Part shown: positions 26,831-40,831 of the stretch, piece by piece
Position numbering within the stretch: position 1 is the first letter of the stretch
Layout: each line of letters opens with the position of its first letter
Assembly (NCBI GenBank): GCA_937139415.1
Contig: CAKZPS010000074.1
Coordinates: 1-49,246, forward strand
Length of the DNA: 49,246 nt
Direction of reading: 5' to 3'
Source of the DNA: an uncultured bacterium
Lineage (GTDB): Bacteria > Atribacterota > Atribacteria > Atribacterales > Caldatribacteriaceae
The notes under the pieces: model-generated
Seen by the model: the letters and a program-made list of their open reading frames with translations, nothing else
What the model was told of the DNA's origin: nothing
Database searches by the model: none
Position numbers and translations under genes: made by a program

Positions 26831-26859
26831 TTGACGAGAGGAAAAACCCATGATATAAT
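26831..26859 (+). promoter_or_regulatory. Sigma-A promoter of the chemoreceptor/EAL operon
   Basis: TTGACG (26831-26836) and a consensus TATAAT (26854-26859) are separated by exactly 17 bp. The start site would fall near 26866, only about 11 nt before the leader hairpin. It is divergent from the beta-glycoside operon promoter about 65 bp away. Confidence 0.85.
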
Positions 26860-26876
26860 TGGAGAACATGGCGGAG

Positions 26877-26917
26877 AAGCCCTTATTGTGCTAAAGAAGG
26901 CGCAATAAGGGCTTTTT
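26877..26917 (+). terminator. Intrinsic terminator in the 5' leader of the chemoreceptor gene
   Basis: A 12-bp perfect stem (26877-26888 with 26903-26914), extendable by two pairs including a G-U pair, encloses a short loop and is followed by a T5 run (26913-26917). It lies between the promoter and the ribosome binding site (AAGGAGG at about 26930). Transcripts from the promoter should therefore often stop before the gene. The leader before the hairpin is too short for a known riboswitch aptamer. Confidence 0.8.
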
Positions 26918-26943: not shown

Positions 26944-28333
26944 ATGACACGGAATACACTTCGTCAAATAGGTAGGATGGCGGGAGAATTTTTGTGGCCG
27001 TCTCGACCGGTCGCCTGGGCATGTCCTTTCTCATCAGAGTACAATGTTCACCGTACCATCTCTCCATCATCGAGAGGGATTACCCGTCCGTCCACCGATG
27101 AGCATAAACCTATTTACGAAGACACTCAAGAACAACTCCATCGCTTCATGAAAGACTATGAGGTCATCACCGTACAAGTTCTCTCCGCCGTGGAACAAAT
27201 GAACACGGTTCAGAAGAATGCTTTCTCCGCTTTGGACACCTTCCGCTACTTACAGGATGCTTCCCAACTCCTTCACCATTTGAGTAATCTTCTCACCACC
27301 CGGATGAAGGAGGTCGAAGAGGCTGCAAAACAGTCTCGTCATTCGCTTGAAACTACTTTCTCCACCATTCACCACCTCTGTCAGGGTATCCTCGATACCT
27401 CCCAGGAGTTAGCTACCTTCAAAAAAGCCGTGGACCAAGTGGACACCATCACGATGAATGTGGGAGAAATCGCCGAATACACAAGAATTTTAGCCCTTAA
27501 CGCCGCTATCGAAGCAGCACGAGCAGGAGAAAAAGGGAGAGGATTTTCAGTGGTAGCCCAAGAGGTAAAAAAAACTCTCCGAACAAACCCAACAGGCAGT
27601 GGAAAAAACAAGCGTCATCCTCAACGAAATCAAAAGGAATATGAAAGAGATGGAAGAACACGTTCATCGCGATCAAAAGAATACCGACCGAGGGAGAGAA
27701 GCTATCAATCAAGTGGGAAAGACACTTACCCTCCTCGAACAGGAAATTGAGCACATGAGTCAAAAAATTCACGAAACCCAGCAGAACATACAAGAATACT
27801 TCGACCAGTTAGAGGAAGCTGCAAGGGCTTTGCAACAAAATTTTGCGGGCATTCAAGAAGCAGAAAGGATTCTCAAAAACCTGGTGGCACTCTTAGAAAA
27901 AAATACCCAGGCCTTCCGTCCGTATTTAGGAAATACCAATTCTGGAAAGGTAGAGTACACTCCGAAATTAGAGACCATTCGCAAAGATCTCCGAACCCTT
28001 GCCCTCCATCCGGACCTCGAAAAGTTAATTCCGGAAGTCCACGGTCCTATCCTCCTCGAATGGCTCAAAACCCGTAGAGAGGTGGAAGCTATCTATACCA
28101 ACCGAAAAGACGGGACCTTCATTTTCTCTCACCCTCCCGCTGCCTTGGCGAACGCCAAAGTACGTCCTTGGTGGCAAAGAGCTATAGCCGGAGAAGAATG
28201 CCTCTCTGAAATTTACATCTCGGCCATTACCCGACAACCCTGTTGCACCATAGCTTTGCCCCTCCGTAACCACGAAAAGCACATTATTGGTGTCCTTGCC
28301 ATTGATATCGCCCTCTCTCACCTTGAGAGTTGA
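26944..28333 (+). CDS. Soluble chemoreceptor-like protein with C-terminal Cache-like sensor (frameshifted)
   Basis: Two overlapping frames together encode about 463 residues. The first (from ATG 26944, with AAGGAGG 7 nt upstream) carries coiled coil and the conserved receptor hairpin tip [38 protein letters not shown]. The second continues with [15 protein letters not shown], more coiled coil and a C-terminal Cache/PDC-like sensor ([29 protein letters not shown]). The frames join perfectly if one A is removed from the A8 run at about 27567-27574, restoring [15 protein letters not shown]. No membrane segment is seen. The frameshift could be a sequencing error, polymerase slippage or a true mutation. 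The following EAL gene is probably co-transcribed. Confidence 0.8.
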
Positions 28334-34973: not shown

Positions 34974-35240
34974 TTATCCTTCAACGTTGTCGACAATGCC
35001 CACAATGAGTGTACGAATAGGCGCTTGTGAATTACCCAATATTGAACGAGCCGAATTCCCCTCATCAATGACGAGGACGAAATCACCTATTCCTGCTTGT
35101 ACCGTATCTAAAGCCAACAAAGTCTGCCCACGAGGTTTGCGCTCTCTATCGACCGGTTGAACAACCAAGATCTTAAAACCCTGAAATACCGGGAGTTTCA
35201 TGGTAGAAACTACATTTCCAACCACTTGCGCCAGGATCAT
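34974..35240 (-). CDS. EutN/CcmL-type microcompartment pentamer (vertex) protein 1
   Basis: An 88-residue BMC-P protein that caps icosahedral vertices of the shell. Family features include MILAQVVGNVVSTMKLPVFQGFKILVVQPVD at the N-terminus, LALDTVQAGIGDFVLVIDEGNSARSIL, and a C-terminal IVGIVDNV. Its ATG overlaps the stop of the preceding pentamer gene by 4 nt. It is one of four such genes in this operon. Confidence 0.93.
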   Translation of the reverse strand: MILAQVVGNVVSTMKLPVFQGFKILVVQPVDRERKPRGQTLLALDTVQAGIGDFVLVIDEGNSARSILGNSQAPIRTLIVGIVDNVEG

Positions 35241-39618: not shown

Positions 39619-39957
39619 TTAGTCTTTACCAGCATTAAATTGCCCCTCAGAGGGTTTTCCTTTCTTTCCCCGACCCAGAGGAAGAACTTCATCCACATTA
39701 CTATGAGGCCGCGGGATAATATGGACCGAAACGACTTCTCCTACCTTGGCCGCTGCTGCTTGCCCAGCATCGAGTGCCGCTCGCACCGCTGCAACGTCTC
39801 CTCGAATGATAGCGGTCACGTATCCTCCACCAATCTTCTCGTATCCGGTGAGTTCTACCCGCGCCGCCTTTACCATAGCATCAGAAGCCTCCACCATAGC
39901 AACAAAACCCCGTGTTTCAATCATCCCTAAAGCATCAGTATAAATATGGTCATCCAT
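39619..39957 (-). CDS. Hexameric microcompartment shell protein (BMC-H)
   Basis: A 112-residue single BMC-domain protein, the main facet tile of the shell: [57 protein letters not shown], then [21 protein letters not shown]-terminal tail (~20 residues, Gly/Lys-rich) follows the domain. The start at 39957 ([11 protein letters not shown]) is chosen because AAGGAG lies about 10 nt upstream; the open frame extends 7 codons further. It is the first gene of the BMC operon and the only BMC-H gene here. Confidence 0.94.
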
Positions 39958-39985
39958 GTTCTCCATTCTCCTTCCCATCGTTTTT

Positions 39986-40015
39986 TAAAAAGAAGGGGTG
40001 ATTTTTTCACCCCTT
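39986..40015 (-). terminator. Intrinsic terminator in the 5' leader of the BMC operon
   Basis: On the minus strand a 9-bp stem AAGGGGTGA (40015-40007) pairs with TCACCCCTT (40001-39993) over an A5 loop and is followed by C and T5. It lies between the promoter and the BMC-H ribosome binding site, starting about 23 nt after the predicted transcription start. On the plus strand the same hairpin is followed by TTTTGTT, so it may work both ways. Confidence 0.8.
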
Positions 40016-40044
40016 TTGTTACTAAAAACACATATTTTGTAATG

Positions 40045-40074
40045 ATTATAACATAGAGAATTGGAAACTGTCAA
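40045..40074 (-). promoter_or_regulatory. Sigma-A promoter of the BMC operon
   Basis: On the minus strand consensus TTGACA (40074-40069) and TATAAT (40050-40045) are separated by 18 bp. The start site would lie near 40038. No other promoter was seen before the 11-gene set down to pduL, so this single promoter probably serves the whole compartment operon, subject to the leader terminator directly downstream. Confidence 0.85.
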
Positions 40075-40831
40075 CCCGGTCATAGAAATTTCTTGCATTT
40101 TTCATAAGGAGAATCTTGCCCGTCTTTGAGAATCGTCATGACCTTAAGATTTCTCTCCCTCGTATTCAGGATACCATCACATTCTCCCCGCATCGCCTGA
40201 AGACGGAGGAAATCACCAAACCGAAAACAATCTTTTTCAAGCATTCCTTCTACCTTTTTCTCCAGAGAATAACGAGATGTTGTTTTTTACCATCAATATG
40301 TTAATGTTAATACATCTTGAGTCTTTTCTACCAAAACATCTCATTTGAACGACTATCTCTTTTCGCTCCACATTTTCAACACTACCTTACTCTCCTCAAA
40401 CTTCTCAAAAGAAAAAACAAACTCTCCACCGGTCCTCCCTATAACTCCCGTACAGAACATGCAATTGAGGTATTTCTCTTCACTTTCCTCACCCATTCTT
40501 CGGAGAAACCCTACCCCCTTTAAGCGATTAAATTCACAAAAAACGGCATTATTATAACACGAGGGTGACAAATTTTTGCCATGTGAGGAAATATCAAAAC
40601 ACTCGGTCTTCAGATTCTCTCGAGTCATATCGGACTTTCTACCCAAGCACCCACGGCGGCGGCGTACAAGTTGCTCCTTTTACCCTCGAAAACACACAAC
40701 TTTCGGGAATTGAGAGGCAATCGAGAAGAACAAAAAGGTGGCAATGATCTCAAAGCGATTCCGCTGTGGAAGCGATAAAGCTTTGAGAACATGCTTCTCA
40801 AGAATCGAAGAAAAATTGTCGAACATCCCTT
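40075..40831. other. Gene-poor region between the ROK kinase and the BMC operon
   Basis: About 750 bp without a convincing gene. Short open frames on both strands lack ribosome binding sites and family features. A direct repeat TGTTAA-TGTTAA (40299-40310) recalls the TGTTAA half-site of the sugar-operon leader but is not palindromic. A weak 7-bp inverted repeat occurs around 40793-40811. I see no RNA gene. Confidence 0.45.

Follow-up and report, generated by a model that had tools for sequence, protein, structure and literature searches.

A putative DeoR-type operator pair and a leader hairpin at the promoter of a sugar-phosphate microcompartment operon in an Atribacterota genome

The first description of the SPU (sugar phosphate utilizing) microcompartment gene set came from Atribacteria and further candidate phyla (Axen et al. 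2014, PMC4207490), and the part of that account used here mentions no SPU regulator. Three better-understood systems offer models for how such an operon could be controlled. Escherichia coli DeoR binds TGTTAGAA-TTCTAACA and is released by deoxyribose 5-phosphate (PMC5326754). The eut operons, which also encode a microcompartment (BMC), provide a precedent for regulated attenuation through EutV and its ANTAR domain (PMC5821096). Finally, the 5' leaders of ompA, papA and aprE carry stabilising hairpins, and the classic examples of this type sit at the very 5' end of the transcript (reviewed in PMC3997798). Here, we compare these systems with the promoter and leader of a BMC operon in a 49,246-nucleotide stretch of DNA, hereafter the window, which is contig C74 of a 2.32-Mb Atribacterota draft genome; among named public records, those of Candidatus Atribacteria are its closest relatives.

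The minus strand carries the operon, which begins with BMC-H and ends with PduL. Its first gene encodes the BMC-H shell protein (39619-39957; PF00936, E 2.4e-30) and is followed, between 39570 and 32876, by genes for four EutN/CcmL-type BMC-P proteins, a PduS/RnfC-like protein, BMC-T, aldehyde dehydrogenase, RpiB, DERA and PduL; the BMC-P at 34974-35240 was assigned by comparison with the gene order of relatives, which it matches. DERA, a sugar-phosphate isomerase, aldehyde dehydrogenase, PduL and shell genes thus stand together, and the operon is a sugar-phosphate (SPU; DERA/RpiB) microcompartment operon. As far as the part of the Axen et al. description used here extends (PMC4207490), the window has DERA, RpiB, aldehyde dehydrogenase, PduL, PduS and shell genes in common with those SPU loci, and its operator pair and leader hairpin are additions to it. 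In the cultured Atribacterota isolate RT761, too, a DERA gene lies within a BMC cluster (PMC7736352). Comparison with the leaders of relatives places the start of BMC-H at ATG 39957 rather than at the open reading frame start at 39978, and the leader is therefore about 81 nt long. A Shine-Dalgarno sequence, AAGGAG, was read at 39968-39973 on the same strand and compared with those of relatives. Between the promoter and a ROK kinase gene, about 750 bp (40080-40831) hold no convincing gene. The same genome contains a partial second BMC gene set (G000:C56:1-4765) in which BMC-H and PduS are broken over frames, and the operator described below is absent from the 113 bases upstream of it.

The first-pass annotation of this DNA had claimed a TTGACA-N18-TATAAT promoter ahead of BMC-H, and it is indeed present, matching the sigma-70-type consensus at 12 of 12 positions (40074-40045, minus strand) and kept in relatives. 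Its -35 box, TTGACA, occupies 40069-40074 and its -10 box, TATAAT, occupies 40045-40050 and is extended by a preceding TGT; the spacing predicts a transcription start near 40038. TTGACA-N16-18-TATAAT occurs three times in the window as compared with 0.01 expected from shuffled sequence, and TTGACA or TTGACT precedes the operators in 20 of 22 BMC-H leaders compared from the phylum, the window's included.

Two 16-bp palindromes, 21 bp apart, are superimposed on this promoter. Site 1, TGTTATAATCATTACA (40038-40053, minus strand; 16.4 bits), overlaps the -10 box, and site 2, TGTGTTTTTAGTAACA (40017-40032, minus strand; 12.6 bits), spans approximately +7 to +22. The scoring matrix was trained on relatives with the window excluded, so the relatives' own operator scores are not independent evidence but those of the window are. 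Of the 49,231 positions that the window offers, this matrix ranks the two sites highest; when 471 kb of the genome are scanned, site 1 is again the best match and the two sites form the only pair spaced by 20-22 bp. The next-best two sites (15.1 bits each) lie 4 to 5 kb from DeoR genes on contigs of 6.5 and 6.9 kb that carry DeoR paralogs, and these contigs entered the scan for that reason alone. An earlier regulon search with a simple palindrome pattern was uninformative, finding no genome-wide enrichment (49 occurrences as compared with 73 for the control), and was replaced by the matrix scan. The pattern shared among the 22 leaders consists of TTGACA, a palindrome TGTTAT-N4-ATAACA over the -10 box and a second palindrome 21 bp further on, a spacing ahead of BMC-H that recurs in relatives across the phylum; two of the 22 leaders (G019 and G043) contain no operator. 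Both sites in the window follow the 16-bp TGTTA-N6-TAACA form of a DeoR-type operator, site 2 as a degenerate match. The conserved control element of the leader, which the first-pass annotation did not include, is this pair of predicted DeoR-type operators.

The resemblance to the E. coli system extends beyond the palindrome. The deoCABD operators and those of the window have in common the 16-bp TGTTA-N6-TAACA palindrome with identical ends, and both systems pair a DeoR-family regulator carrying a DeoRC sensor domain with an operon for deoxyribose 5-phosphate use. They differ in architecture: the two sites in the window lie at a single promoter, 21 bp from each other, and those in E. coli are distant and looped. 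A DeoR-family gene (HTH_DeoR plus DeoRC, about 258 aa) adjoins the BMC operon in eight relatives (G004, G010, G012, G013, G019, G021, G030 and G045). The window encodes no such regulator, next to the operon or anywhere else within it; the genome does encode two orthologs (C42:169-939 and C58:1416-2189) that share about 70% identity with the regulator adjoining the G004 operon. Among 50 genomes of the phylum, DeoR is present in 21 of 24 with BMC-H and in 4 of 26 without it (p 5e-7, uncorrected for kinship); the three BMC genomes in which no DeoR ortholog was found are drafts and may lack genes. Similar palindromes near the starts of several relatives' DeoR-family genes suggest that these regulators could be autoregulated. 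For the four relatives' regulators tested, DeoR is the closest NCBIfam model, yet they score 162-188 bits against a cut-off of 244 and are therefore not filed as DeoR itself. In this respect these putative regulators of BMC operons are unlike E. coli DeoR.

Two further observations concern these regulators. On each paralog's contig, a promoter carrying a 15.1-bit site precedes a small hairpin that lacks a U-tail, and a ribosome-site-like sequence comes next (L175:6198-6290, p 0.004, and L174:5860-5970, p 0.026, both on the minus strand), and both of these leaders appear to lead into short reading frames. In G010, a member of the window's own family, the DeoR gene and BMC leader (L139, L188) group with those of G012 (L130) from another family, which suggests that the BMC locus of these two genomes may have been transferred horizontally.

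Altogether, we favor a model in which the SPU operon has its repressible promoter and its leader in this stretch, the promoter probably served by a DeoR-type repressor and the leader containing a hairpin with a structural role. Control of the operon most likely lies with the repressor rather than with termination, because relatives retain the repressor sites, and frequently a hairpin too, but in no case a stop signal. We envision that a DeoR-family protein, encoded elsewhere in the genome, which has two paralogs, binds both palindromes and blocks initiation, site 1 covering the -10 box and site 2 lying just past the start. Release of the repressor would then come from a sugar phosphate that the pathway produces or consumes; deoxyribose 5-phosphate, which DERA splits, is the obvious candidate. 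We infer that the hairpin, whose role is the weakest part of this account, most likely exerts its effect in the mRNA, where it could for instance impede 5'-end-dependent decay by RNase E/G. Slowed decay of this kind is possible since the genome encodes RNase E/G; no RNase J, the alternative route, scored above cut-off there. In the window's species, the U-rich tail may add fixed, partial termination. The model provides a concrete candidate regulator and operator for the microcompartment of a largely uncultivated phylum and would tie its expression to the sensing of deoxy-sugars.

The hairpin itself was described in the first-pass annotation as a 9-bp stem with a T5 tail, beginning about 23 nt after the predicted start and ahead of the BMC-H ribosome site, and we find it at 40015-39987. 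Its arms, AAGGGGTGA-AAAAA-TCACCCCTT (39993-40015, minus strand; -13.7 kcal/mol), enclose a loop of five A, and only five of the nine pairs are G-C. The tail that follows, CTTTTT (39987-39992, minus strand), consists of a C and then TTTTT and occurs in the window's genome only. This leader segment is more stable than shuffled sequence (z -2.9, p 0.01). By sequence criteria, a G-C-rich stem followed by a U-tract, the hairpin qualifies in its own genome as the intrinsic terminator it had been called, with d = +20.1 by the d'Aubenton-Carafa formula. The survey from which this score can be judged covered 444 kb on both strands (L190-L209 of the genome plus the window, with crude gene calls) and returned 119 positive sites. 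An equal score arises about once per 18 kb of strand, so a chance origin within an 81-nt leader is unlikely. In the same 444 kb, U-tailed hairpins near gene ends seem scarce, with three within 80 nt past a stop codon under a strict scan and crude gene calls; Rho is encoded.

Comparison with relatives separates the hairpin from its tail. In eight relatives, the segment between operator 2 and the ribosome site also forms a significant hairpin (p 0.003 to 0.023), and the stems fall into unrelated sequences, those of G004, of G007/G009/G011, of G010/G012/G022, of G016 and of the window's genome. What the window and its relatives have in common is therefore the position of the hairpin and not its sequence. 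Within G007/G009/G011, two pairs are compensatory, a number that is not significant against shuffles with three rows, and slid pairings are 33-58% paired as compared with 97% for the actual register. Three genomes with an insert at this place (G013, G015 and G021) have no significant hairpin, and the hairpin is absent from six JS1-type genomes of one family (f7), in which only TTA separates operator from ribosome site. None of the eight hairpin-bearing relatives has a U-tract, and their terminator scores range from -4.6 to -45 as compared with the positive score of the window; across all nine relatives' leaders scored, there is no U-tract and every score is negative (-4.6 to -59.9). Terminator character is thus not conserved among relatives that have the hairpin. 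Since the relatives' hairpins differ in sequence and lack a U-tract, what part of the order has conserved, judged on this comparison, is the hairpin's structure, and the terminator tail is unique to the window's genome. These findings run against the annotation's expectation that most transcripts should stop unless antiterminated, as do the six genomes without a hairpin and a leader without alternative pairing. They also counsel caution, as relatives should be compared before the name attenuator is given to a lone leader hairpin with a short U-run.

The same annotation had remarked that the hairpin might serve to stabilise the 5' end. This idea fits the comparison with relatives, in which, as in ompA, papA and aprE, the 5' leader preserves a structure, and not a sequence, ahead of the ribosome site. 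It fits less well with position, since about 23 nt separate the hairpin of the window from the predicted 5' end, and those of ompA, papA and aprE are at the end itself; by this analogy, a stabilising role is a candidate. Two other roles were considered and rejected. With the hairpin removed or shuffled, the predicted openness of the ribosome site stays nearly the same, which argues against a device that holds this site open or closed. The sole candidate for a leader peptide is ATG-TGT-TTT-TAG, which lies inside operator 2 and has no ribosome site.

The strongest competing explanation, which we regard as a serious though less probable one, is that in the window's species the hairpin functions as an intrinsic terminator that is not regulated, so that a fixed share of transcripts ends after about 50 nt and basal expression is lowered on top of repressor control. 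The rarity of so high a score together with a CUUUUU tail speaks for this explanation, and operator 2 is weaker than its counterparts in relatives (12.6 as compared with 14 to 23.6 bits), so leakage might be limited in another way. On the other hand, the tail occurs in no relative, a C interrupts it and leaves only five U thereafter, and 48 sites in the 444 kb score higher, placing the hairpin 49th. A broader and rather speculative proposal, which we think improbable, is that the phylum's DeoR-type promoters share a composite leader (operator pair, hairpin free of sequence constraint, ribosome site) and that the hairpin is a 5'-UTR module that would have turned into a terminator in one species, an intermediate in the birth of an attenuator.

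It is quite unlikely that the hairpin serves instead as a palindrome recognised by a protein in the DNA, or as a terminator that works in both directions and protects against antisense transcription. The inverted repeat is perfect and scores higher, +30.3, as a terminator on the plus strand; however, the stems at this place in relatives are unrelated, a variation one would hardly expect if a DNA-binding protein recognised them, and no convincing plus-strand gene points into the hairpin.

Least probable of all is regulated attenuation, in which a protein or RNA signal would block terminator formation in the presence of substrate, in the manner of EutV at eut operons: both are BMC operons with a terminator-like leader hairpin and the genome encodes one ANTAR protein (C40), but the window, unlike the eut leaders, lacks a dual-hairpin target (none with A1/G4 hexaloops in 40110-39901), has its hairpin only 23 nt past the predicted start and has a U-tail conserved in no relative. 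Nor was an antiterminator structure found in the leader, where the best fold without the hairpin reaches -3.6 kcal/mol and pairing of an arm with the upstream leader at most -1.7. For the protein antiterminator that had been raised as one possibility, there is no ANTAR or LicT-type target or partner, and CAT_RBD is absent. A riboswitch or other known leader element was likewise rejected, in agreement with the annotation, as no Rfam family matches at gathering score; the best weak match, the ylbH leader at 22.9 bits, falls well short of the 50 bits required.

A second promoter followed by a hairpin occurs elsewhere in the window. At 26831-26914 on the plus strand, TTGACG-17-TATAAT precedes a long hairpin whose tail is T-rich (score +36.5), which begins about 11 nt past the predicted start and lies directly before the ribosome site of a chemotaxis-like gene, for which there was no close ortholog for comparison. 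This gene (26944-28333, plus strand) is split over two frames, an MCP signal part and then a Cache-domain part, and is therefore either frameshifted or misassembled.
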